The notes under the pieces: model-generated
What the model was told of the DNA's origin: nothing
The model's input: the letters and a program-made list of their open reading frames with translations, nothing else
Databases searched by the model: none
From: a bacterium
GTDB taxonomy: Bacteria > Desulfobacterota > S145-22
Assembly: GCA_027004185.1 (NCBI GenBank)
Contig: JALTIG010000286.1
Coordinates: 1 to 45,398 of the forward strand
DNA length: 45,398 nt
Direction: 5' to 3'
In this document: piece by piece, positions 22,881 through 45,019 of the stretch
How the letters are laid out: each line of letters starts with the position of its first letter
Numbering within the stretch: position 1 is the first letter of the stretch
Translations under genes and position numbers: made by a program

Positions 22881-24203
22881 ATGCCCGATGAATCTATTAT
22901 TAAGGAAAAGGACCGCTTTCACGAAGCGGAAGGAATTCCTTATGATTCCGCTGTATGTCCAGGATGCGGTTGCCTCTGCGAAGATATCGATTTAACCTTG
23001 AATAATGATCAAATCATCCAGACCTTCCACGTGTGTTCATGGGGCCTTTCAAAATTTCATCTCGGACATCGTTTTTTAAGGGAACCCAAACATGCCAAAC
23101 TTGTCTTTCCCACAAGAAAAGAGGCTTCGGGAAGGCCTCTTCCTATTTCCTACGAAGAAGCCTACGAAACCACCGCTTCCATTCTTCATGATGCCATGCG
23201 GGTAGTTTTCTTCGGTTTATGCCAAACCACTTTCGACGCCCAAATGGAGGCCATCACTCTAGTGAATCATTTGAACGCGGACCTTTATCCTTCTGAAGGG
23301 ATGCTACTAACCCCATATTTCAAGGCATTGAAAACTCAGACCACTGGAATGGCAACCCTTGAAGAAATCCGACAGCTTGCCACAACCCTTATATTCTGGG
23401 GGGTTAATCCTCTCCATAGCTGTCCCCGCCTGGTGGCCCGATACGCCGTATTTGTCGGGGGTATTAACGCGCCTGAACGACATATGGGCCGTAAGGTTTT
23501 CTATATTGATCCTTACGAAAACGACACAGGATCCTTTTCACAACACATTCCTGTAACTCCCGAGAATGAACTAAACATGGCCAACAAACTCACTGAGATC
23601 ATCGAAGAAGGTAGCTTTTCTATCCCAACAGAGCTGAATCTGCTCGTCCAAAGCATCGAGACAAGCCCATTCGTGGGGCTTTTTGTTGGCAGAGGGATCG
23701 CATATTCTCACACTCCGCAGGAACTTATGGAAACCCTTTTTAAGCTGAGAAACGCTATCAACAAAAAAACCCCATGCGTGCTCCTTCCCGTCATTTCTGA
23801 CTTTAACGCCTTGGGTCTCTATTTTTCAATGATCCAAAATGGAATCGATCCCTCAACCTCCCCATACATTAAGGGAGACCTTTTGTCCTACCATCCGAAA
23901 AGAGGAGATGCTATTATTTGTATAGGATCAGACCCCTTCTGGTTCCTTAAGGAAGAACAGATCACAGCCATTAAATCCCTTGATATCCCTATAGTAGCCA
24001 TTTCCTCCCTTCAGAACCAGACAACCCATGCTGCCACCATCGTTATCCCCGTAGCCCTTACAGGAGTCGAAACCGAAGGGTTAGCGTTCCGTATGGATGG
24101 AATCCCTATCTACATGAGAAAGGTTCTACCTACCGCACAACCAACTGATCTAAATGCCTTGAAAGCCATTAAGGAAAGGATTGGGGGAAAAGCAAATGGC
24201 TGA
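22881..24203 (+). CDS. FwdB/FmdB-like (formylmethanofuran dehydrogenase subunit B) homologue lacking the W/Mo-ligand Cys
   Basis: N-terminal 4Fe-4S 'VCPGCGCLCEDIDLTLNNDQIIQTFHVCSWG'; 'FWGVNPLHSCPRLVARYAVFVGGI...GRKVFYIDP' matches FwdB 'YWGCNPLHAHPRHMSRYSVF'. The region aligned to FwdB 'VCHGPS' reads 'LYPSEGMLLTP'. Confidence 0.8.
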   Translation: MPDESIIKEKDRFHEAEGIPYDSAVCPGCGCLCEDIDLTLNNDQIIQTFHVCSWGLSKFHLGHRFLREPKHAKLVFPTRKEASGRPLPISYEEAYETTASILHDAMRVVFFGLCQTTFDAQMEAITLVNHLNADLYPSEGMLLTPYFKALKTQTTGMATLEEIRQLATTLIFWGVNPLHSCPRLVARYAVFVGGINAPERHMGRKVFYIDPYENDTGSFSQHIPVTPENELNMANKLTEIIEEGSFSIPTELNLLVQSIETSPFVGLFVGRGIAYSHTPQELMETLFKLRNAINKKTPCVLLPVISDFNALGLYFSMIQNGIDPSTSPYIKGDLLSYHPKRGDAIICIGSDPFWFLKEEQITAIKSLDIPIVAISSLQNQTTHAATIVIPVALTGVETEGLAFRMDGIPIYMRKVLPTAQPTDLNALKAIKERIGGKANG

Positions 24204-24660
24204 GATGAAGGTTCTTGATATCTATCGCCTGCTCCCTCGCACCAATTGCAGAAAATGCGGCATGGTTTGTATGGCCTTCGCCTCGGCACTCCTGACGGGC
24301 AAGGCCAAACCTGAAGATTGCCCCCCCCTGGTTGAGGATGAAAAATATGCCGAAGCCTACCAAAAGCTTCAGGAGGCCTTCGGTAAAACAGGTGAACGAG
24401 AGGCAACTGGCCTGAGTATCGACCGGAATAAATGCGACGGGTGTGGCATTTGTGCCGCAGTCTGCGAAATCAGCCTTGAAAAGAGCCAGGAACTCACCAA
24501 TGGGAAAGGTTCCCGCCGCTTTGAATCACCCGTCATTATTATTGTGAATGGAGTTATCACTATTAAAAATCCGGACGCGTGTAGAAGAGTTGTCCCTGAT
24601 GCTCCTACCTGTAATGCTTGCGTAGACCTCTGTCCTTCAAAAGCCCTGACATTTCTCTAA
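24196..24660 (+). CDS. Fe-S protein: AcsC/RnfB-type 4Fe-4S domain plus ferredoxin domain
   Basis: 'LLPRTNCRKCGMVCMAFASALLTGKAKPEDCPPL' (CxxCGxxCxxFA...C) then 'DRNKCDGCGICAAVC...ACRRVVPDAPTCNACVDLCPSKAL'. Overlaps the fwdB-like stop by 8 nt. Confidence 0.85.
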   Translation: MAEMKVLDIYRLLPRTNCRKCGMVCMAFASALLTGKAKPEDCPPLVEDEKYAEAYQKLQEAFGKTGEREATGLSIDRNKCDGCGICAAVCEISLEKSQELTNGKGSRRFESPVIIIVNGVITIKNPDACRRVVPDAPTCNACVDLCPSKALTFL

Positions 24661-24672
24661 GGATCGATACCC

Positions 24673-26043
24673 ATGAGACTTCTCATCAAGAATGCTACGA
24701 TCTTTGACCCATTAAACGGGATACAGGGTCAACCTGGTAACCTTTATATCCGTAACGGGCGCATGTCAAAACCCTTTAAAAATCCGGATCAGGTAATCGA
24801 TGCCACCGGTCTTTGGGCACTTCCTGGAGGGATCGATGCTGGAAGCGCTTTCACCTCCTATGGCATATCTCTTTACGGTTTCCAGCAAGGGTTATCCATC
24901 TACCCGGCATCCCTTAGTGCCTCCTATGCCCTCATGGGATACACGCACCTTCATGAATCCATGATGTTTCCAACAACAGCTCTGGAGACTCACCGCTTTC
25001 TCACCGCTCTCCCCTACCAGGACGGCTCAGCATCCCTATGCCTGTCATTACGAGAATTTGGATCCCTGATAGGGTCTGATACCCCTCCTGAATGGACTGT
25101 TCTTTTCCTCGATCTATGCGCCCAGCGTTTTCACGCCCTAAACATTCACCTTTTAGAAACAAGCGTTCACTTCAGGGAAAGCGCTCTTTCCCGTTTTAAT
25201 ATCCAGGCAAGTAAGGTCCTCCGTTATATCGAGAGGTTACCCCTAAACCTTCCCTTTCTTATCGAGACAACATCGCGACTCTTGGATGAGGAACTTCCGG
25301 GAACACCAAACCTCTATTATAGCCATATCGGCCAGGCCATCGACGGTAAATACGCCTATAAGCAAATAATCACCCATATGACTTCAAAAGGGATGTCCGG
25401 TGACCTTGGCCTTATCCCACCCTTCCCACATCACCAGCTCCAGATAACGTCTGAGTTAACCGAAGGGGAGCACCTGGTAGCCCATATAGGGCTCCACGCA
25501 CCCCTGAAATACCTGAAGGTCTCACCACCCGCGTCACAAATTCCCCTTATACTAAATTTCGCCACTCACCCAGAGTTCAAAAAAAACCTGGCCTTCTCCA
25601 CACTTTGCCTTGGGTCTCAGGCAATCGACTGCTATCCAGTACTGTTTCAACAACTCTTTGAAAACGATCACTCATTTACGGTAGAAGATTTTGTTTACCA
25701 GACTCGTCTCGTGCCCGCTTCTTTATTGGGCCTAAAAGATAAGGGACATCTGGGAATTGGTGCCATCGGGGACGTGGCCCTTTACGACCCGAATAAAGGC
25801 CAATCTCCAGGAGAAGTTCTCAGTCACTGCCACACTCTGATCAAAGGAGGTACTCCTGTAATAGAAGAGGGGGTTTTCGCCCATGCCCCAGAACACCCTG
25901 AGACACAAACCTATTTCCGAAGCCATTCTCCCACTGAAAAAGGTTTCGCAATATTTACCACCTATTTCAGGGCATACCCCAGACTTGAGCATCTTCATGT
26001 GCCAGAAACGATGGGGGTTTGGAAATCCATTCCTATTGAATAG
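24673..26043 (+). CDS. FwdA/FmdA/FhcA-like amidohydrolase-fold homologue, predicted catalytically inactive
   Basis: 'LLIKNATIFDPLNGIQGQPGNLYIRNGRM', 'VIDATGLWALPGGID', 'ALMGYTHLHESMMFP', 'TRLVPASLLGLKDKGHLGIGAIGDVALYDP' match FwdA/FhcA. Metal-ligand motifs are substituted (see findings). Confidence 0.8.
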   Translation: MRLLIKNATIFDPLNGIQGQPGNLYIRNGRMSKPFKNPDQVIDATGLWALPGGIDAGSAFTSYGISLYGFQQGLSIYPASLSASYALMGYTHLHESMMFPTTALETHRFLTALPYQDGSASLCLSLREFGSLIGSDTPPEWTVLFLDLCAQRFHALNIHLLETSVHFRESALSRFNIQASKVLRYIERLPLNLPFLIETTSRLLDEELPGTPNLYYSHIGQAIDGKYAYKQIITHMTSKGMSGDLGLIPPFPHHQLQITSELTEGEHLVAHIGLHAPLKYLKVSPPASQIPLILNFATHPEFKKNLAFSTLCLGSQAIDCYPVLFQQLFENDHSFTVEDFVYQTRLVPASLLGLKDKGHLGIGAIGDVALYDPNKGQSPGEVLSHCHTLIKGGTPVIEEGVFAHAPEHPETQTYFRSHSPTEKGFAIFTTYFRAYPRLEHLHVPETMGVWKSIPIE

Positions 26044-33904: not shown

Positions 33905-34768
33905 CTAAACCCTGCCAAGAACCGGAAAGGGATCCACAATAACCTTCTCCAAGCCGACATCCTGCATTGTAGCGCCAAAGGCAAGTCCCATTAGCTGGCT
34001 AAAATAAAGGATTGGCATGTCGTAAAAGGTCCCAAACTTGTTTCCTATATCTTTCTGACGAAGGTCAAGGTTCGATTGGCAGAGGGGACATGCCACTGCC
34101 ACACAGTCAGCCCCGGCATCTTTTGCCCCCTCTAAAATCTTATTTGTAAGGTAAAGTGCAGCATCAGTCTCCACCAGGCTCATACTCACACCGCAACAGT
34201 CGGTCTTGAAGGACCAATCGACTGTTTCCGCTCCTACAGCACGCATCAAGTCATCCATACTGTGAGGATTTTCCACATCGTCAAATTGGGCTATATGGGG
34301 AGGGCGTGTCAAGAGACACCCGTAATAACAGGCAACTCTCAACCCCTTAAGGGGTTCAACTACTGCTTCCTTTATCTTGTCTATTCCCACGTCATTCAGA
34401 AAAACATCCAGAATATTTCTGACGCGCACACTTCCATGGTATGGCGCTTCCAAAACCTTCTCAACATCTCTCTTCAGCTCCTCATCTTTGTCCATTTCCA
34501 TACTGGCTACCTTTAAACGGGTCAAACAAGAGACACAGGGGGCGATGACCTGGTGAAGCCCCATCGCCTCTGTTTGAATCAGTGCCTTGGCAGGAAGCGC
34601 AATGGACAATAGGTGAGACGTGGCGTGTGCGGAAGACGCTCCACAACATATCCAGTCTGGAATTTCCATAAGCTCCACCCCTGTAAACTGGCAGCAGGCA
34701 CGAATAGATAGATCATATTCCTTTGCAGAAGACTCTAATGAACAACCAGGATAATAGGCGTATCTCAT
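33905..34768 (-). CDS. hdrB: Heterodisulfide reductase subunit B homologue (copy 2)
   Basis: 'YYPGCSLESSAKEYDLSIRACCQFTGVELMEIPDWICCGASSAH' and 'SFKTDCCGVSMSLVETDAALYLTNKIL...ACPLCQSNLD' twin CCG motifs. Confidence 0.92.
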   Translation of the reverse strand: MRYAYYPGCSLESSAKEYDLSIRACCQFTGVELMEIPDWICCGASSAHATSHLLSIALPAKALIQTEAMGLHQVIAPCVSCLTRLKVASMEMDKDEELKRDVEKVLEAPYHGSVRVRNILDVFLNDVGIDKIKEAVVEPLKGLRVACYYGCLLTRPPHIAQFDDVENPHSMDDLMRAVGAETVDWSFKTDCCGVSMSLVETDAALYLTNKILEGAKDAGADCVAVACPLCQSNLDLRQKDIGNKFGTFYDMPILYFSQLMGLAFGATMQDVGLEKVIVDPFPVLGRV

Positions 34769-35328
34769 GTGCGTGACTCCTCAAGTTTCTTTACATTCTC
34801 AAAAAGTTTCTTCACGGAATTTAGATCCTTCACCCTATCAGGTAACAACTTCAATTTCCCCTTAGAAAGCATGACAGGTCCCAAGTCCGCATCTTTCAAG
34901 GGATTACTCAAGGCAAAATTCAGATCCATGGCAAAGCCAATTTCATAAAGACGCCCATAGGTTTCTACGGAACGGAGAAAAACCTCGTGAAATGCCTTAA
35001 TGGATTCAAGCGGGATATGATATCCTTCTTTGAAAGCCATTTCACGCAACGCATCCATCACCTCAACAATCTCAATCCCCTGAGGGCAACGCGTTGCACA
35101 CGTCTCACAAGAGACACACCACCACATGGTGTCCGCCGATAAAACCTCATCACGTAGCCCCAGTTGGACGGTCCGCATCATCTCACTGACTTTCATCTCC
35201 ATCCTGAAAGCCATGGGACACCCCATGGTACACTTTCTGCATTGATAACAGGTCAAGAGATCCTGCCCACACAACTCCTTGAGCTCTTTTGAAAAAGACG
35301 TCGTATCACTCTTTATCACAACTTTCAT
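34765..35328 (-). CDS. hdrC: Heterodisulfide reductase subunit C homologue (copy 2)
   Basis: 'LTCYQCRKCTMGCPMAF' and 'WWCVSCETCATRCPQGIEIVEVMDALREMA' ferredoxin motifs. Overlaps hdrB by 4 nt. Confidence 0.92.
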   Translation of the reverse strand: MKVVIKSDTTSFSKELKELCGQDLLTCYQCRKCTMGCPMAFRMEMKVSEMMRTVQLGLRDEVLSADTMWWCVSCETCATRCPQGIEIVEVMDALREMAFKEGYHIPLESIKAFHEVFLRSVETYGRLYEIGFAMDLNFALSNPLKDADLGPVMLSKGKLKLLPDRVKDLNSVKKLFENVKKLEESRT

Positions 35329-35361
35329 AACGTTCCATTTCCTCCCCGCTGATTCAGTAAT

Positions 35362-36855
35362 CTAATTCTCCAAGATAAAGGGAAGTTTCACAGTAAAATG
35401 CGTCCCCTGATTTTCAACACTCTTAACATCAATCGTCCCTAAATGGGCATCCACCACTTGCTTCACAATCGAAAGACCAAGCCCAGTTCCCACGATCTGG
35501 CGTGTTTTTTCTGTCTTAACCCTGTAAAACCGCTCAAAAATTCTTGGAAGATCCTTTTCTGAAATCCCGATCCCTGTATCTTCCACATCAATCCGTATAT
35601 AATCTCCTTCCTTCATTCCAGTGACCTTCACCATCCCCCCCTCTGGAGTATACTTAATAGCATTACTAATCAAATTGGTAAAGACACCTTCCATATTTGC
35701 TGCATCCGCATTAACGGACGGAAGCCCATTCTCTATTTCAAATTCCAGCGTCAGGCCCTTTTGCTCCGCCTGGGGGCGCATCAAATCCACCACTTTCGTG
35801 AGCAAACCCCCTATGTCCACAGGCTCCATATATTGCACTTGCATGCCTGCCTCTATCTTGGAAAGATCAAGCAGATCCTTCACCAAATCCAATAAGCCCT
35901 TGGCCCGTTCCTTGGCCCGCCTCAGCATGCGCGCCTGCCGCTCGTTGATCTCCCCTGCAAGTCCCTTGAGAATCACTGTTAGCTGCTGCTCGATCGCCGC
36001 TACTGGCGCCCTCAGCTCATGCGTAACCATAGCAACAAAATCCGCCTTCATTCTCTCAAGTTCCTTCAATTGGGTAATATCCTGAAGGACCATAACGCCT
36101 CCTAGCAGATCTCCCTTTTCATCTCGGACGGGAACAGCATGGCAACGAAGAAAGACCCCCTTCTCACCAGACCTTACCTGGATCTCACGGCTCACTCCAG
36201 AAAGGCTTTCTACTTCCCTTTCAAGAACATCCATGATGATTTCAGAAAGGGCTTCCACCTCAATCTCGTCCACAGGTTTCCCGATCACGTCCTCCGCGGC
36301 CACAGAAAGGAAACGTGTGGCCGCAGGGTTTAACAGGGCAACAGATCTGTCTTTATCCACCACAAGTACCCCATCCGTCATGCTGTTAATAATCGTATGG
36401 GTCTTGCTTTTCTCCTTCGCCACATCCTTCAAGCTCTTTTCGGCCTCTTCCCTTAACCGCTTGGTTTCCTCTTCAAGGGCCTTCTTCTCAAGAGCCCGAT
36501 GGACAACAATCCTAAGTTGGTCTGGGGTAAACGGCTTTGGAATAAAATCATAAGCCCCTTTTTTCATTGCCTCCACCGCTGTATCTACTGTAGCATACCC
36601 CGTCACCACGATGACGAGCAACGAAGGCGCTATCTCCCTGACATGTTCCAACACCTCCATACCGCTCATCCCCGGCATCATCAAATCAAGGAGCATCACG
36701 TCAAACGTGTTCGGTGATTCCCTGACCAGGTCAAGCCCAGTCTCCCCATTTTCCGCAGTGACAACCTCTATATCTTCCTTGGTCAGTATCCGGCTACTGC
36801 CATCACGCATAATGGCTTCATCGTCTATGACGATGATTTTTGGTTTACGATTCAC
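35362..36855 (-). CDS. Hybrid sensor: N-terminal receiver + PAS + histidine kinase
   Basis: Receiver 'KIIVIDDEAIMRDGSSRILTKEDIEV...DVMLLDLMMPGMSGMEVL'; PAS 'IINSMTDGVLVVDKDRSVALLNPAATRFL'; H-box 'DFVAMVTHELRAPVAAIEQQL'; ATPase 'NLISNAIKYTPEGG...VEDTGIGISEKDLPRIFERFYR...GTGLGLSIVK'. Confidence 0.93.
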   Translation of the reverse strand: MNRKPKIIVIDDEAIMRDGSSRILTKEDIEVVTAENGETGLDLVRESPNTFDVMLLDLMMPGMSGMEVLEHVREIAPSLLVIVVTGYATVDTAVEAMKKGAYDFIPKPFTPDQLRIVVHRALEKKALEEETKRLREEAEKSLKDVAKEKSKTHTIINSMTDGVLVVDKDRSVALLNPAATRFLSVAAEDVIGKPVDEIEVEALSEIIMDVLEREVESLSGVSREIQVRSGEKGVFLRCHAVPVRDEKGDLLGGVMVLQDITQLKELERMKADFVAMVTHELRAPVAAIEQQLTVILKGLAGEINERQARMLRRAKERAKGLLDLVKDLLDLSKIEAGMQVQYMEPVDIGGLLTKVVDLMRPQAEQKGLTLEFEIENGLPSVNADAANMEGVFTNLISNAIKYTPEGGMVKVTGMKEGDYIRIDVEDTGIGISEKDLPRIFERFYRVKTEKTRQIVGTGLGLSIVKQVVDAHLGTIDVKSVENQGTHFTVKLPFILEN

Positions 36856-36885
36856 ACTTTCTCCCAGTGTATAGAAACCATCTCC

Positions 36886-37266
36886 CTACTTTGCAAGAAG
36901 CATTTCTATCCTATTGACCAGTTCTTCAGGTTCCACAGGTTTGTCCATATAATCTTCTGCTTCGGTTTCAAGTCCCATCTGTGGGGTATATTTCGTTGAT
37001 GTAATGTGAGAAACCACAGCGGTAAGAAGTAGGATCGGGATGTTTTTGAGCTCTGAATCCGCTTTGAGTTCCTTAGCAACCGCATAGCCATCTTTATCCG
37101 GCATCATAACATCCAAAACGATTAGATCTGGATTCTCGGTTCTAGCCTTCTCCAACCCTTCAATCCCTCCATAAGCAGCCGCGACGTCATACCCCTTGCT
37201 TTCCAGGATCATCGTCACCGCTTCAACGAGATCAGGATCATCATCAACAATCAATATCTTTGCCAT
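36886..37266 (-). CDS. Single-domain response regulator
   Basis: 'KILIVDDDPDLVEAVTMILESKGYDV...PDLIVLDVMMPDKDGYAVAKEL...ILLLTAVV'. Confidence 0.93.
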   Translation of the reverse strand: MAKILIVDDDPDLVEAVTMILESKGYDVAAAYGGIEGLEKARTENPDLIVLDVMMPDKDGYAVAKELKADSELKNIPILLLTAVVSHITSTKYTPQMGLETEAEDYMDKPVEPEELVNRIEMLLAK

Positions 37267-37292
37267 TGGTATCCTCCTTTTAATTTCCTATT

Positions 37293-38216
37293 TTATACTT
37301 GTGGACGGGGATATAAACCAGCTCCTTTGATAATCTCAGGCACCTTTTCCTCCCATTCTATGGCCATGATGTGTACCCCCCTGACCCCTTCTATTTCTTT
37401 CAGCCTTTGTATTGTCTCAATACAAATCTTAATCCCCTCTTCAGCCCGCTTCTCTTTGGGAACTCCCTTCAGCCGGTCAATAATCTCGTCGGGGACATCC
37501 ATCCCAGGAACCATATTTTTCATATACTTGGCCATTCCCACCGATTTCATGGGGGTCACGCCCCCAAGGATATAAACCTTCTCATGAAGCCCCCGATCCC
37601 GAACCCCCTTCATCCATTCTTCAAACTTGTCCACGTTGTAGATACATTGGGTTTGAATAAAATCCACCCCCGCGTTGACTTTCTTCGCCAAACGAGGAAC
37701 CCGTATTTCAAACGGATCCGCGAAGGGATTACAGGCCGCCCCGATAAAAAGCTTCGGTACCCCTTTAATCTCTTCCCCTTCAATGAATTTTCCTTCATCC
37801 CGCATAGCCTTTACTGAATGTATCAATTGGATGGAATCCATGTCATAGACATTTTTTGCTTTTGGGTGGTCACCAAATACCTGATGATCCCCGGATAAGC
37901 AAAGGATATTGTTGATACCGAGAGCAGCTGCCCCTAAGATGTCACTTTGTATGGCAATCCGGTTCCGATCCCGCGTCACCATCTGCAAAACAGGATCGAG
38001 ACCCATCCCCTTTAGGATGAAGCAGGAAGCGGCACTCGACATCCTAACCACGGAGGTTTGATTATCCGTGACATTAACCGCATCCACTACATCCCTCAAA
38101 AGCTCACCTTTCTTTCGGATTACCTCCGCATCCGCACCTCTTGGAGGTCCACATTCCGAAGTAACCGCAAATTCACCTTTTTCAAGAACTTTCTCAAGGC
38201 GGCTGGACGATTTCAT
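37293..38216 (-). CDS. metF: Methylenetetrahydrofolate reductase MetF
   Basis: 'EFAVTSECGPPRGADAEVIRKKGELLRDVVDAVNVTDNQTSVVRMSS', 'ILCLSGDHQVFGDHPKAKNVYDMDSIQLI', 'DFIQTQCIYNVDKFEEWM'. Confidence 0.93.
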   Translation of the reverse strand: MKSSSRLEKVLEKGEFAVTSECGPPRGADAEVIRKKGELLRDVVDAVNVTDNQTSVVRMSSAASCFILKGMGLDPVLQMVTRDRNRIAIQSDILGAAALGINNILCLSGDHQVFGDHPKAKNVYDMDSIQLIHSVKAMRDEGKFIEGEEIKGVPKLFIGAACNPFADPFEIRVPRLAKKVNAGVDFIQTQCIYNVDKFEEWMKGVRDRGLHEKVYILGGVTPMKSVGMAKYMKNMVPGMDVPDEIIDRLKGVPKEKRAEEGIKICIETIQRLKEIEGVRGVHIMAIEWEEKVPEIIKGAGLYPRPQV

Positions 38217-38881
38217 AATCTTAAATCCTCCCTCACGACCTTTCTCGGTCCCCCATCACGGCTGGTGGACCAATCCTTGATGGGAATGTATTCCTCAAAC
38301 CTCTCAAGTTGCCCCAATGACTTTAGTCTATCTATGATGAGCTGCCATCCACAATCAATCTCCTTATTGACCTCACACTTTCCGTTGGACGATCCCCCGC
38401 AGGGTCCATTCAAAAGGCTCTTGGAACATCGAGTAACGGGACATATCCCACCCGTCAAATGGAGGATACAATCCCCACAGGCCTGGCAGCGCTCCGTCCA
38501 AAGTCCCTGTTCCTCTGTAACCCCGATAAACGTGGTATTAATAGCGGGAAAAACGGGAGTTTCCGGGTAAGCTTCGGCCACAAATTGAACTCCTGCTCCG
38601 CAAGCCATGGACAGAATAGCCTCATAATTGGGAACCATGGACCGAATCTGCTCAATATACTCATGATCACACTGGCGCTCCAGGGTAAACTCCAAAATAT
38701 CAATGGCACGGCCCTTTTGTTTGCGTAAGAGCCGTAGCTCCGAGGCCAAAATGCCTACCTCCTTTTCACCCCCGACAGAGCACACAGTCACACATTCCCT
38801 GCATCCCAAGACGATGATCTTTTCGAAAGGATCGATCATGGCCTCGATCTCCTCCATTGGTTTCCTCTCACCTACAATCAT
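38213..38881 (-). CDS. metV: MetV-type zinc/Fe-S partner of MetF (methylene-THF reductase C-terminal domain protein)
   Basis: 'IIVLGCRECVTVCSVGGEKEVGILASELRLLRK', 'CQACGDCILHLTGGICPVTRCSKSLLNGPCGGSSNGKCEV'. Overlaps metF by 4 nt. Confidence 0.92.
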   Translation of the reverse strand: MIVGERKPMEEIEAMIDPFEKIIVLGCRECVTVCSVGGEKEVGILASELRLLRKQKGRAIDILEFTLERQCDHEYIEQIRSMVPNYEAILSMACGAGVQFVAEAYPETPVFPAINTTFIGVTEEQGLWTERCQACGDCILHLTGGICPVTRCSKSLLNGPCGGSSNGKCEVNKEIDCGWQLIIDRLKSLGQLERFEEYIPIKDWSTSRDGGPRKVVREDLRL

Positions 38882-39324
38882 GACACATCCCCATCCTTCT
38901 TTTGTTTTGGTTGCTTGAGAGGGCTTGGCCCAAGTTTCTTAATCTTTTCCACCATTTCCCTTGCCACAGCTGCAAAACGAGGTCCCATGGCCGCCGACAT
39001 ATTGTACATCTCCAACCTGTCCCCACCAAAACCGATTTCATCTAGGAGCTTTTTTGCATGCTGGACCCGTTTTTTCGCTCTGAAATTCCCGTTAATAAAA
39101 TGACAATCCCCTTCCATACACCCGGCCACATAAACCCCATCCGCACCATCCTCAAAGGCCTTAAGTAGATGCAAAACGTCCACTTTTCCCGTGCATGGAA
39201 GCCGGATAATTCGCACATTCGGTGGATACTGGAGGCGCATGGAACCCGCCAGGTCAGCAGCGGTATACGCACAGTAATGGCAACAAAATGCAACGATTTT
39301 TGGTTCAAACATCTCTTCACTCAT
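38878..39324 (-). CDS. mvhD: MvhD/HdrD-type hydrogenase iron-sulfur subunit (electron-transfer subunit)
   Basis: 'EPKIVAFCCHYCAYTAADLAGSMRLQYPPNVRIIRLPCTGKVDVLHLLKAFEDGADGVYVAGCMEGDCHFINGN'. Confidence 0.94.
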   Translation of the reverse strand: MSEEMFEPKIVAFCCHYCAYTAADLAGSMRLQYPPNVRIIRLPCTGKVDVLHLLKAFEDGADGVYVAGCMEGDCHFINGNFRAKKRVQHAKKLLDEIGFGGDRLEMYNMSAAMGPRFAAVAREMVEKIKKLGPSPLKQPKQKKDGDVS

Positions 39325-42300
39325 CAGGCTGCCACCTCACTCTTGTCATACAGGGCATCACATTTTGCAATCACCTGAACATCCCTGAAGTATTGAAGTT
39401 GAATGGCTTTACCCGGACATTCTGCTGCACAGACTCCACACCCGTGACATTTTATCGGGTCAATCTCCGCTTTCCCTCTCTCGTTTATAACCGGAACTGA
39501 ATAGGGACACGCCCGCACACAAGTGAGACAGGCCGCGCACTTATCCTCATCCACAACCGCTACCACTCCCCCAACAGAGATAAAATCCTTGGCCAGGATC
39601 GTCCCTGCCCGTGCAGCGGCCGCAGCCGCCTGAGCGATCGATTCCGAAATATTCTTTGGAGAATGTGCCGTCCCGCAAACATAAATCCCGTCCGTAGCAA
39701 AATCCACAGGACGCAATTTCATATGCGCCTCCAGGAAAAAGCCATCTGTCATCCGAGGCACCTTCAACATCAAGGCAAGTTCCTCATTCTCTCTCGGAAT
39801 TGTCGCGGAGGAAAGAACCAGTGAATCTGGATAGATGGTGATTTTACGCTTTATAATGGGCTCAAAAAACTGAACGGAGAGCCGCCCATCCTCCTCGCTG
39901 ACCTCTGGCTTGCTCTCTGGACTGTAACGGACAAAGAGAATGCCCCTTCTACGTGCTTCTCGGTAGTAGGGTTCCATCAACCCATAGGTTCGTATATCTC
40001 TGTACAGAATCACCACCTGGGCGTCCGGATTCTTATCCTTGAGTCTCAAGGCATTTTTAATGGCCGTCGAGCAACAGACCCGACTACAGTATGGGCGTTC
40101 CTCATTACGCGATCCTACGCACTGAATCATGACCACGGTATTCTGACCCAGGGCAAACTGAGGCTCCCTAACCAGGGATCTCTCAAATTCAAGTTGAGTC
40201 ATAACATGTTCATTTCTCCCATAGAGATACTCATCAGGTTTGAGTTCCTCACCACCCGTCGCGACAATAACAACCCCATGTTCCAGTTTTCGATAATACA
40301 TCCCAGGTGCCACCATGATGCCCGTACTGAAATTGCCCTGTGTCCCGGAAAAATCAACGATCAAGGCATTGGTGATCACATGAATATTCTTATCCGCCTT
40401 AACCTCTTCAATCGTTTTATAAAGGAGTGACTGAACATCTTCACCCTCAATGGTAAAATAAATATTTCTTATGTTTCCACCTAATTGCGGCTCTTTCTCA
40501 ACAAGGTATACCTCATAGCCCTGCTCAGAAAGCCTCAAGGCAGCCGTCATTCCAGCAATTCCTCCCCCAATGACCAGCCCCTTCTTAATAATGGGCAGAT
40601 TCTTCTCATGAAGGGGGATTAGCTCACGTGCACTGGCCACAGCCATTCGAACAAGATCTTTCGCCTTTTCCGTTGATTCGGAATGCATATGCATATGAAC
40701 CCAGGAGCATTGATCCCGAATGTTTGCCATCTCAAAAAGGTACTTATTCAAACCCGCCTGACGTATGGTCGCTTGGAAAAGAGGTTCATGAGTTCTGGGG
40801 GAACAGGAAGCTACTACAACTCTGTTCAAACGATGCTCCTTGATCCTTTCCTTGATGCGATCCTGCGTATCCTGAGAACAGGTAAAAAGGTTATCTTCCG
40901 CATAGGCGACATTCGGGAGGGTCTTAGCATAATCCCGAACAGCGGGCACATCTACCACCGACCCAATATTAACGCCACAGTGACAGACAAAGACCCCGAT
41001 CCTGGGCTCCTGTCCCTCAACATCGAGCTCCTCTGGAAGTTCTTCTCTTACCAGTTCTGTCCCCCTTGCATCCGCCAAAAGCCCAGCCGCATATGCCACG
41101 GCACTACTTGCTTGAGACACCGTCTCAGGGATATCTTTGGGTCCTTGAAAGGCACCACAAACAAACACCCCGGGGCGCGACGTAGAAACCGGAGTAAATG
41201 GATGGGTGCGACAAAACCCATAACTATTCATCTCGACAGATATTCTCTGAGAGAGCTTCACCGCTTCACGGGATGGCTCCAAGCCCACGGAAAGAACAAC
41301 CATATGGAAGGTTTCATTCTTTAAAGACCCATCTTCCCCCTGATAGGTCAGAACGAGATCGTGGGTAACAGGATCCTCTGTCACCCGAGAGATCATAGAA
41401 CGGATATATTTCACACCGAACTGGCTCTGAGCCCGCTCATAGTAGGCATCAAACCCCTTTCCAAAGGCTCGAATATCCATATAGAAAATGGTAGTCTCGA
41501 TACCTTGGAGGTGTTCCTTTGCAATAATTGCCTCTTTTGTGGCATACATGCAGCAAACCGAGGAACAGTACGGATGGTCTGTATCCCGGCTCCCTACACA
41601 CTGGATAAAGGCGATTTTCTGCGGGATGTCCCCATCCGAAGGCCGCATAACGGTGCTGCTATACGGCCCCGTGGCGCTAAGCATACGTTCAAACTCGATC
41701 GAGGAAACCACGTTGGGGAAACGTCCATAGCCATACTCCCCTTTCTTCATCGGATCGTATTCATCAAAACCCGGGGACAGGATCACAGCTCCCACGCGGA
41801 CATTTTCTACCTTCGGGGGGATCGTATAATCGATCGCCTCCGCTTCGCAAACATCGGCACAGATCCCGCATCCCAAGCACCGGCGACAACTTAGGCAACG
41901 CTTCGCTTCCCTGACAGCCATCTCCTCGGTGAAACCAAGTTGAACCTCATCAAAAGTTTTGATCCGTTCTTTTACCTCAATCTCCGGCATGGAAACCCTC
42001 GGTTCCTGTTCTATCCCTTCACGCACATCCTCAACAGGGAAGAAAACCTCCTCTAATTCTCGCCCCGCCTTGAGATCTTCCCCCTTCAGATAGCGTTCGA
42101 TGGAAACTGCAGCCCGTTTCCCCGCTGCCATGGCATCGATTGCCATGGCCGGTCCTGTCACCAGGTCTCCACCAGCGAATACGCCAGGAAGGTTCGTTTC
42201 GAGGGTTAAAGCGTCAACCTGTGGCAACCCCCGACGTGTGAGCTTAAACCCAAGGGATTCAAGCAACGACATATCGGTCCGCTGACCGATGGCCGGGATT

Positions 42301-43760
42301 ACCCGATCCGCCTTGAGTAAAAACTCACTCCCTTTAACGGGGATTGGGCGGCGGCGACCAGAATCATCCGGGTCGCTGAGGCGCATCTTGATCATTTTTA
42401 CCCCGACAACCTTGCCCCCTTCTCCCACGATTTCAATAGGGGAGACAAGGTATCGTATTGCGATCCCCTCCTGGAGTGCTTCTTCAATCTCCTCCTCATT
42501 CGCGGGCATCTCCTTACGTGAACGCCGATAACAGATCTCCACAGACGCAGCTCCCGCACGCAGGGCTGATCGCGCTGCATCAATAGCCACGTTCCCTCCC
42601 CCAACAACAATCACATGACCCGAGAGACTCTTTAAAGTTCCAAGATTTAGGTCTCTGAGAAAATCTACCCCTGGGATGACACCGCCAAGGTCCTCTCCCG
42701 GGATATTGAGTGTCTGATTTTTGTGCGCCCCGATCGCAAAGAAAACCGCCTTGAACCCTTCTCTTTCAAGGTCTTCAAAGGTCTTATCCTTTCCAAATGT
42801 TACCCCGGTAGCAACCTCAACTCCCAAAGCTTTGATAGCGTCAATTTCCTTGTTTAATACATTTAGGGGCAATCGATAATCAGGGATTCCAACAGCCAAC
42901 ATCCCCCCCGCCACGGGAAGCTTCTCAAAAACCTTCACCCGAAATCCCTTGAGAGCCAAGTCATTGGCGCAAGTCAACCCTGCCGGTCCCGCTCCGATAA
43001 TCGCTATCCTTTCTTCCCGCCTCTCATGCACGACCGGAACAGGAATCGGCTTTCCAGATGCCTCTTCATAATCCGCCACAAACCTTTTTAGGGAGGCGAT
43101 GGCAATAGGCTCATCCACTTTCCGTCCCCGCAGGCACATTGTTTCGCAAGGATGGCTGCAGATTCGACCACAGACGGAAGGGAAAGGAAGTTTCTTCCGG
43201 ATGATAGCCAGTGACTCCTCGTACCGTCCTTCAGCAATAAGTCCAACATATTCCCGTACATCCAGGTGGATAGGACAGGCCACCGCGCAAGGCGGATCCT
43301 CTTTGTCAATCACGTAGGTAGAAGGGACTGCTTGGGGATAATTGATATAAACAGCAGAACGTCCCGTTTCACCCTCATTGTACTCACTTAAAACCTCGAG
43401 AGGACAATTCTGGGTGCAAAGCCCGCACCCTGTACACTTTTGCGGGTCAACACGTTTTGAATGCCGAGCAATAGTTGCTGTAAAATTCCCCGGTTCCCCC
43501 TCAAGCCCCAACAGATCCGCATGTGTAATCAGCTCAATGTTCGGATTTCTGGCTACCTCGACCAGCTTGGGTGACATAATACACATACTGCAGTCATTGG
43601 TGGGAAAGGTTTTGTCCAACTGAGCCATCGTCCCACCTATGTTGGCACTTTTTTCCAGAAGATAAACCTTAAATCCTGATTCTGTCAGGTCAAGGGCTGC
43701 CTGCATTCCGCCTATTCCGCCCCCAACAACAAGTACCGCACCTGATTTCTCCTGGGTCAT
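39324..43760 (-). CDS. hdrA: HdrA-HdrA fusion with nested GltD/NfnB-like NAD(P)H oxidoreductase module (1478 aa)
   Basis: First HdrA N-terminus (aa 1-150: 'VLVVGGGIGGMQAALDLTESGFKVYLLEKSANIGGTMAQLDKTFPTNDCSMCI'); GltD-like block at about aa 155-625 ('PCAVACPIHLDVREYVGLIAEGRYEESLAIIRKKLPFPSVCGRICSHPCETMC', 'RIAIIGAGPAGLTCANDLA', 'HVIVVGGGNVAIDAARSAL'); remainder of the first HdrA; second complete HdrA from about aa 919 ('RIGVFVCHCGVNIG') ending in 2x4Fe-4S. Confidence 0.92.
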   Translation of the reverse strand: MTQEKSGAVLVVGGGIGGMQAALDLTESGFKVYLLEKSANIGGTMAQLDKTFPTNDCSMCIMSPKLVEVARNPNIELITHADLLGLEGEPGNFTATIARHSKRVDPQKCTGCGLCTQNCPLEVLSEYNEGETGRSAVYINYPQAVPSTYVIDKEDPPCAVACPIHLDVREYVGLIAEGRYEESLAIIRKKLPFPSVCGRICSHPCETMCLRGRKVDEPIAIASLKRFVADYEEASGKPIPVPVVHERREERIAIIGAGPAGLTCANDLALKGFRVKVFEKLPVAGGMLAVGIPDYRLPLNVLNKEIDAIKALGVEVATGVTFGKDKTFEDLEREGFKAVFFAIGAHKNQTLNIPGEDLGGVIPGVDFLRDLNLGTLKSLSGHVIVVGGGNVAIDAARSALRAGAASVEICYRRSRKEMPANEEEIEEALQEGIAIRYLVSPIEIVGEGGKVVGVKMIKMRLSDPDDSGRRRPIPVKGSEFLLKADRVIPAIGQRTDMSLLESLGFKLTRRGLPQVDALTLETNLPGVFAGGDLVTGPAMAIDAMAAGKRAAVSIERYLKGEDLKAGRELEEVFFPVEDVREGIEQEPRVSMPEIEVKERIKTFDEVQLGFTEEMAVREAKRCLSCRRCLGCGICADVCEAEAIDYTIPPKVENVRVGAVILSPGFDEYDPMKKGEYGYGRFPNVVSSIEFERMLSATGPYSSTVMRPSDGDIPQKIAFIQCVGSRDTDHPYCSSVCCMYATKEAIIAKEHLQGIETTIFYMDIRAFGKGFDAYYERAQSQFGVKYIRSMISRVTEDPVTHDLVLTYQGEDGSLKNETFHMVVLSVGLEPSREAVKLSQRISVEMNSYGFCRTHPFTPVSTSRPGVFVCGAFQGPKDIPETVSQASSAVAYAAGLLADARGTELVREELPEELDVEGQEPRIGVFVCHCGVNIGSVVDVPAVRDYAKTLPNVAYAEDNLFTCSQDTQDRIKERIKEHRLNRVVVASCSPRTHEPLFQATIRQAGLNKYLFEMANIRDQCSWVHMHMHSESTEKAKDLVRMAVASARELIPLHEKNLPIIKKGLVIGGGIAGMTAALRLSEQGYEVYLVEKEPQLGGNIRNIYFTIEGEDVQSLLYKTIEEVKADKNIHVITNALIVDFSGTQGNFSTGIMVAPGMYYRKLEHGVVIVATGGEELKPDEYLYGRNEHVMTQLEFERSLVREPQFALGQNTVVMIQCVGSRNEERPYCSRVCCSTAIKNALRLKDKNPDAQVVILYRDIRTYGLMEPYYREARRRGILFVRYSPESKPEVSEEDGRLSVQFFEPIIKRKITIYPDSLVLSSATIPRENEELALMLKVPRMTDGFFLEAHMKLRPVDFATDGIYVCGTAHSPKNISESIAQAAAAAARAGTILAKDFISVGGVVAVVDEDKCAACLTCVRACPYSVPVINERGKAEIDPIKCHGCGVCAAECPGKAIQLQYFRDVQVIAKCDALYDKSEVAA

Positions 43761-44137
43761 GATGAACCTCCCGGTGCCGTGTAACGATAGTAAGGGATTT
43801 TCCCCTCCTCTATACGCCCCACTACCACAAGACCTCGACGTCTAAGTTCGACAATGTGCCGTAAAACAGAATCTGGCGGCATCTTTAATTCCCTCGCCAT
43901 CTCCTTCACAGACATTTCTTTGTTAGACAAAATTTCACAGATCCGACTCCTCAGTAATTCTCGGTTCATAATCTGATCCAAGGATATCTGAAACTGCCGA
44001 TTCGTGTATCTTTCACCATAAAAATTCCCTTTTTCTACCAACGCCGGCTTCTTTTCCAGCAGCGCCCGAATCTTTTTGGCGCTAAAAGGATCCCACTTTT
44101 CAACGAAAGCGATCTTCTCTTCCATGACACTCCTCAC
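43757..44137 (-). CDS. winged-helix/HTH transcriptional regulator
   Basis: 'RSRICEILSNKEMSVKEMARELKMPPDSVLRHIVELRRRGLVVVGRIEEGKIPYYRY'. ATGA overlap with the hdrA start. Confidence 0.75.
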   Translation of the reverse strand: MRSVMEEKIAFVEKWDPFSAKKIRALLEKKPALVEKGNFYGERYTNRQFQISLDQIMNRELLRSRICEILSNKEMSVKEMARELKMPPDSVLRHIVELRRRGLVVVGRIEEGKIPYYRYTAPGGSS

Positions 44138-44140
44138 GCA

Positions 44141-45019
44141 TTATATGAGACCTACCCTTTTCAAAAACACCTTCGGATCCACAAAATGCTTTTTCCATTG
44201 CCCTGCCGGCAGTTCTCGCCCCAGGGCCAGTGCCAACAACTCAGAGACATAGAAAACGGGTAATCCTGCCGAATGACTGTACTCAGGCTTCGTGCCGGAT
44301 TGCATCAGATCCAGATTCATCTGGCATAAAGTGCAAGAAGTTACAATAGCGTCCGCCTGTACAGCCTGGGCATTATCCAGAATATGGCCGCTTAAACGAC
44401 AGACAATCGCCTCTTCCGTAACGTTCAGACTTGCACCGCAACAGTCCATCTTAGACGGCCAAGGAACCGCTTCCGCTCCGATGGCCTCCATGACCCGATC
44501 CATATACACAGGGTTTTCCCGGTCATCAGAGGCTTTTGAATGGGGAACACGTGTCAAAAGGCATCCGTAATACGAAACGACCCGAATCCCCTTTAAAGGC
44601 CTTTTTACCGCCCTTTTTATCCTTTTCAGGCCCACATCTTCGACGAGAATTTCAAGAATATTCCTGACCTCTGTACTCCCCTTGTAATTTAATGGTTCAA
44701 TCAGTTCATTAACCTCCAGAAGCTTTTCCTCATCCTTCTGGAGAACGCGGTTTGCAAGGATAAATCGGTGATAACATGCAGAACAGGGTGCAAAAAGGGA
44801 CAGGCCTTCCCGCTCGGCAAGCGCAAGGTTTCTTGCCGGCAGGGCAAGGGCGAGAGATTCGTTCAGGCTGTGCGCTGCCGTAGCTCCACAGCAGTTCCAG
44901 TCAGGAACCTCCCTTAAATCCACACCGAGGGAACCAAGGGAAACCTTGATGGAATCATTATATTCCTTTGCCGAGGAATGAAGCGAACATCCGGGGAAAT
45001 ATGCGATTTGAATTCCCAT
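44141..45019 (-). CDS. hdrB: Heterodisulfide reductase subunit B homologue (copy 1)
   Basis: 'AYFPGCSLHSSAKEYNDSIKVSLGSLGVDLREVPDWNCCGATAAHS' and 'SKMDCCGASLNVTEE...TSCTLCQMNLD' twin CCG motifs. Confidence 0.92.
   Translation of the reverse strand: MGIQIAYFPGCSLHSSAKEYNDSIKVSLGSLGVDLREVPDWNCCGATAAHSLNESLALALPARNLALAEREGLSLFAPCSACYHRFILANRVLQKDEEKLLEVNELIEPLNYKGSTEVRNILEILVEDVGLKRIKRAVKRPLKGIRVVSYYGCLLTRVPHSKASDDRENPVYMDRVMEAIGAEAVPWPSKMDCCGASLNVTEEAIVCRLSGHILDNAQAVQADAIVTSCTLCQMNLDLMQSGTKPEYSHSAGLPVFYVSELLALALGRELPAGQWKKHFVDPKVFLKRVGLI

Follow-up and report, generated by a model that had tools for sequence, protein, structure and literature searches.

A formylmethanofuran dehydrogenase-like gene module of Desulfobacterota as a probable Hdr-linked electron-transfer unit

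Three adjacent genes, here called B, F and A, in a 45,398-nucleotide stretch of bacterial DNA (the whole stretch analysed, hereafter the window) resemble parts of the archaeal CO2-fixing enzyme formylmethanofuran dehydrogenase (Fwd), and sulfate-reducer-type bacteria carry them as a conserved unit. On balance of the sequence evidence, they probably encode subunits of a soluble electron-transfer complex that would derive from an archaeal-type Hdr-Fwd assembly and would no longer make formylmethanofuran. Catalytic sites have been lost, the Fe-S wiring has been kept and HdrA genes travel with the module, which together indicate that the product is probably an electron-transfer complex and not a CO2-fixing enzyme. 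We found no description of the B-F-A unit in the open literature that we searched. The features of the window are as follows.

22881..24203, + strand: B, FwdB-like subunit, 440 aa, with TIGR03129 and PDB matches
24196..24660, + strand: F, small Fe-S protein, 154 aa from ATG, with a CFeSP/RnfB-type domain and an FwdG-like 2x[4Fe-4S] ferredoxin
24673..26043, + strand: A, FwdA-like (amidohydrolase family) subunit, 456 aa, with TIGR03121 and profile matches
33905..45019, − strand: HdrB/HdrC-MetV/MetF-HdrA cluster, roles read from sequence, with only the HdrA assignment of the large ORF backed by a domain match

The initial annotation described tightly packed FwdB-like, Fe-S and FwdA-like genes, and this layout is confirmed: all three ORFs are intact across 22881-26043, B and F overlap by 8 nt when F starts at ATG 24196, the start used by its relatives (an alternative upstream TTG at 24181 gives a longer ORF), and 12 nt separate F from A. 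B is preceded by a Shine-Dalgarno-like AGGAGAG. The candidate promoter that had also been assigned to the module did not survive, given that such signals occur at chance level (3 found versus 4.5 expected). The HdrB/HdrC-MetV/MetF-HdrA cluster, near the module but separate and on the opposite strand, is a possible partner locus. Its 1478-aa HdrA (39324-43760, − strand), as read from sequence, has an apparent GltD-like insert and resembles the archaeal 'type III' HdrA of PMC12054007.

A profile search with A over 395 genomes of one phylum, the Desulfobacterota, returned 32 carriers, whose families are coded f. Two of these (f33) hold ordinary Fwd/Fhc-type operons and were used as an outgroup, leaving 30 module genomes in six families (f1, which is that of the window, f2, f7, f39, f51 and f71), with Desulfobacca acetoxidans as a cultured carrier. 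Conserved synteny, proposed earlier as a check, is found throughout: B, F and A lie together in 29 of 29 module loci on sufficiently long contigs, G002 being left out because its locus is cut at a contig end.

B resembles FwdB over nearly its full length (TIGR03129, E 4e-68; PDB 5t5i_B, E 1e-40); NCBIfam and PDB were used because a Pfam scan of B gave no FwdB family. The window protein falls under the curated TIGR03129 cut-off (229.8 against 327.8 bits), and the FwdB of one f39 genome, G043, passes it. B is not a NuoG/Nqo3 protein either, scoring 28.9 bits with the NuoG model against a cut-off of 470. At the positions of Cys118, His119 and Arg288 the window protein has Leu, Leu and Ile. His119 and Arg288 are active-site residues of M. 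wolfei FwdB. Cys118 is the metal ligand of FwdB (PMC12054007). All three residues are replaced in 27 of 27 full-length module FwdB proteins and retained in the f33 outgroup. In that outgroup (G251 and G207; L096 2377-6161 and L097), a single contig encodes FwdB, FwdA, FwdC and Ftr, and in G251 all four exceed the curated cut-offs. The f33 FwdB differs from methylotroph FhcB in retaining Cys, His and Arg, so that it may be an active bacterial Fwd.

For A, a single sequence matches TIGR03121 at E 7e-28, below the curated cut-off (97.2 against 392.75 bits), and single-sequence searches match its ends only. A 26-sequence profile reaches FwdA (5t5i_A) at E 7e-51, and hhalign of the A profile against true FwdA gives E 4e-36 with profile positions 7-455 aligned; the protein is approximately 90-115 aa shorter than true FwdA. 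AlphaFold models are of low confidence, with a pLDDT of 34 for A (3 sequences) and 38 for B (alone). In the binuclear metal site of FwdA the ligands are four His, an Asp and a carboxylysine (PMC11656701), and window A keeps one of these six: the HxH, Lys, His3 and Asp positions are gone and His4 is present. Most or all of these ligands are gone in f1, f7, f51, f2 and f71. In f39, all six are found in 5 of 6 proteins and five in the sixth. The earlier claim that both large subunits have dismantled active sites is thus right for the window copy but not for f39, so that loss of both halves is not universal and was probably stepwise. In unrooted trees f39 adjoins the f33 outgroup, a position that would fit the FwdB site having been lost before the FwdA site, an order that the long branches make uncertain.

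The module genomes show no evident use for formylmethanofuran. The initial annotation saw no fwdC or ftr nearby, and this extends to the whole genome of the window (G000), in which neither has a match. Across nine module genomes tested, G000 included, Ftr and above-cut-off FwdC are both found in 0 of 9, and both are present in the outgroup genome G251; beside the module, no gene for FwdD, the bisPGD-binding domain, was apparent. A folate formyl-ligase (formate-tetrahydrofolate ligase) is present in 8 of the 9, and acetyl-CoA synthase in 27 of 30 module genomes versus 224 of 365 others (p = 8e-4). Taken together, these genomes appear to use the folate pathway. Contig C62 of G000 bears, next to an HdrA, a separate ORF that resembles formate dehydrogenase and contains an in-frame TGA.

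Some enzymes of the MopB family, for example arsenite oxidase, have no protein ligand to their metal. The module could accordingly catalyze a new reaction, either with A as a modified amidohydrolase, for which f39 with its retained ligands is the clearest case, or at a metal site of this ligand-free kind in B, and the G043 FwdB above the curated cut-off also counts in favor. We consider this unlikely, because nearly all FwdA ligands are gone from the window protein and from four further families, Cys, His and Arg are jointly missing from every full-length module FwdB, and the tested module genomes have neither Ftr nor a cut-off-passing FwdC.

The Fe-S wiring has a different fate from the catalytic sites. 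The N terminus of F is a CFeSP/RnfB-type 4Fe-4S domain (PF04060; PRK04165, E 2e-15), and the best single-sequence solved relative of its ferredoxin half is FwdG (5t5i_G, E 1e-9), so F itself is largely an Fwd part. F is the best conserved of the three proteins. Its 12 cysteines are invariant in 29 of 29 proteins, and the N-terminal 4Fe-4S cysteines of B (CPGCGCLC...C) are complete (4/4) in 27 of 27. That the Fe-S motifs are kept, as first proposed, is borne out. The genes are also under purifying selection: dN/dS (pairwise Nei-Gojobori where dS is estimable, pairs with dS >1 being rough) spans 0.03-0.19 in F, 0.11-0.28 in B and 0.10-0.34 in A. These values bear on whether the genes are decaying paralogues of an Fwd/Fhc system, as the two degraded active sites of the window copy might suggest. 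The genes are intact across carriers with low dN/dS (0.03-0.34 overall) and all cluster cysteines retained, and a search for a complete second fwd set found no intact copy elsewhere in G000, so that decay is extremely improbable.

The neighborhood of the module links it to Hdr genes. Same-strand HdrA and/or HdrC genes adjoin the module in 22 of 23 loci of f7, f51, f71 and f39 (two f7 neighbors that were first masked by antisense ORFs are counted). The order in f7 and f51 is B, in some loci a peptidyl-prolyl isomerase, A, F, in most HdrC, and a tandem HdrA of approximately 1030 aa; in f71 it is FwdF-like, HdrA-FlpD, short HdrA, B, A, F and tandem HdrA; and in f39, where the contig shows it, FwdF-like, HdrA-FlpD, short HdrA, F, B and A. 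HdrA2 models recognize the module-linked HdrA proteins with E 1e-136 to 1e-275. Among solved structures, the FwdF-like protein (25-31 cysteines) is closest to the FwdF subunits of 7bkb, an Hdr-Fmd complex, and of 5t5i. Several loci hold further genes: the peptidyl-prolyl isomerase-like gene separates B from A in five loci of f7/f51 (L062 9648-10181, L104, L106, L107 and L111), a DUF3795 gene directly follows the tandem HdrA in four (L062 15674-16096, L105 10034-10531, L106 and L109), and in G043 (f39, contig C91, L060 5020-6501) a reverse-transcriptase-like ORF and toxin-antitoxin-like small genes, as read from sequence, stand between the HdrA pair and F-B-A.

The FwdF-like, HdrA-FlpD and short HdrA genes form a set that lies in cis in f39 and f71, near the module in f7, and in trans in f51 and f1; in Desulfobacca and G001 they make up a separate three-gene row away from the module, and in G000 pieces of the set are on two short contigs, C89 and C105. 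The FwdF-like and short-HdrA profiles each match 28 of 395 genomes, and each gene is carried by 25 of the 30 module genomes (Fisher p = 2e-31, relatedness ignored). HdrA is abundant in module genomes generally; the short HdrA is separable from its paralogues, scoring 668-944 bits versus at most 475 for the other single-domain copies examined. Three genomes have the FwdF/short-HdrA set without the module. Profile matches to the set are missing from the two f2 genomes, from G083 (f51) and from G003 (f1). G083 (99% complete; contig C32, L114) has B-A-F-HdrC-HdrA and no match for FwdF-like, short HdrA or acetyl-CoA synthase.

In f1 (5 genomes) and f2 the module has no adjoining Hdr genes. The isolated three-gene loci of f1, with the FwdF/HdrA set on other contigs, could represent an independent ferredoxin-like unit, redox or regulatory in role, confined to f1 and recruited away from Hdr. 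This is very unlikely, given that a FwdF-like gene is kept in 3 of 5 f1 genomes and a short HdrA in 3 of 5, and draft assemblies may explain the gaps. Judging from the co-occurrence, the window copy would use its HdrA set in trans. A Flx-type tandem HdrA of G000 (contig C208) was rejected as the module partner because its identity to the module-linked tandem HdrAs of f7/f51 is 42-44%, compared with approximately 56-68% among those proteins between genera.

The Fe-S partner had also been taken to hint at a C1/corrinoid context. An AcsC/CdhE/RnfB-type domain is indeed present, but as a hint it is weaker than the operon link to HdrA/HdrC and the co-occurring FwdF-like/HdrA-FlpD/HdrA set. Carried further, the hint would have the unit dock on CO dehydrogenase/acetyl-CoA synthase or its corrinoid protein, giving electrons for activation or taking them from CO oxidation, with the HdrA link secondary. 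Beyond the N-terminal domain of F and the enrichment of acetyl-CoA synthase, archaeal-type CdhA and CdhB lie directly after F-B-A in two f39 genomes (L060 10850-13851 and L100 10468-13481; TIGR00314 and TIGR00315, below cut-off), and CdhA is upstream of the module in the f2 genome G080. However, CdhA adjoins the module in these three loci only and Hdr linkage is far more general, the nearly complete G083 has the module and no acetyl-CoA synthase match, and RnfB has the same FeS domain type. Docking of this kind therefore has little probability as the main role.

For the electron-transfer complex that we favor, the proposed mechanism starts from an FwdB whose CO2-reducing site is lost and, in the lineage of the window, an FwdA whose formate-condensing site is lost as well. 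The scaffold and an Fe-S path, with one cluster in B and three in F, would be retained. This path would most likely link an HdrA-type flavin, via the FwdF-like polyferredoxin, to a low-potential partner, for which ferredoxin or CO dehydrogenase are candidates, and could operate as flavin-based bifurcation or confurcation in connection with the folate Wood-Ljungdahl pathway. Methanogen Fmd can attach to Hdr by way of subunit F, which lets the uphill electrons from bifurcation pass directly to FwdB (PMC11656701). Homologues of HdrA, FwdF, FwdG, FwdB and FwdA persist here and the sink is gone, from which we infer that the Fe-S path ends at another partner; physical assembly, direction of electron flow, reaction and terminal partner are likewise proposals. 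A non-catalytic, structural MopB subunit has been proposed in archaeal HdrA clusters (PMC12054007), which supports this type of explanation and concerns a different protein clade. Of the roles first suggested (scaffold, electron conduit, C1-carrier binding or a new reaction), scaffold and electron conduit is the best supported, and the FwdA metal site kept in f39, which a scaffold does not need, counts against a pure scaffold.

More tentatively, the module may be part of an undescribed bacterial bifurcating or confurcating complex of approximately six subunits (FwdF-like, HdrA-FlpD, short HdrA, and pseudo-FwdB, -A and -G), which would re-use a dead Hdr-Fwd supercomplex as an Fe-S relay for energy conservation in folate Wood-Ljungdahl organisms such as Desulfobacca, with f39 as an intermediate that has a metal-competent FwdA. 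If so, a conserved Hdr-linked complex would add a partner for HdrA genes, many of which have no assigned partner in Desulfobacterota, and would bear on how acetate-oxidizing and autotrophic members balance energetically hard Wood-Ljungdahl steps. It would also be another molybdoenzyme fold turned wire, as in complex I, with an intermediate stage preserved. The cultured carrier Desulfobacca acetoxidans makes this reading testable.

By composition the module fits neither Fwd nor Fhc, as originally judged. With Fwd/Fmd (PDB 5t5i, 8rja) it shares homologous B, A and G-type ferredoxin, the FwdB 4Fe-4S cysteines and, elsewhere in the genome, an F-type polyferredoxin. It differs in having no Cys118, His119 or Arg288 in B, no FwdC or Ftr, a shorter A whose metal site is gone from the window protein and from four further families, an F fused to a CFeSP-type FeS domain, and window scores under NCBIfam cut-offs. 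The Hdr-Fwd/Hdr-Fmd supercomplex of methanogens (PDB 7bkb, 9sw6, 9sfi) likewise brings HdrA, FwdF, FwdG, FwdB and FwdA homologues together and has FlpD/MvhD fused to HdrA; HdrA and FwdF-like genes stand beside fwd-like genes in f39, f71 and f7, and in the genome of the window only in trans. The module is bacterial, however, lacks a CO2-reducing site, is accompanied by several HdrA copies and has no HdrB seen next to it, with HdrC only in f7/f51. The Fhc complex (PDB 6s6y) also uses an FwdB-type subunit without a metal-binding site as a scaffold, but has an active FhcA together with FhcC and FhcD, whereas the module is without FhcC and FhcD and has lost the FwdA site outside f39. Archaeal clusters of type II HdrA, FdhB and non-catalytic Molybdop (PMC12054007) share a MopB-fold protein without the ligand Cys, proposed to be structural, in an HdrA cluster; the archaeal protein, partnered by FdhB, comes from a clade close to FdhG/FhcB, whereas the bacterial one is FwdB-type and has partners of FwdA, FwdG and FwdF type. 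NuoG/Nqo3 of complex I offers a functional analogy, as a molybdopterin-fold subunit without cofactor that keeps its Fe-S wiring, and B differs from it in belonging to the FwdB lineage.
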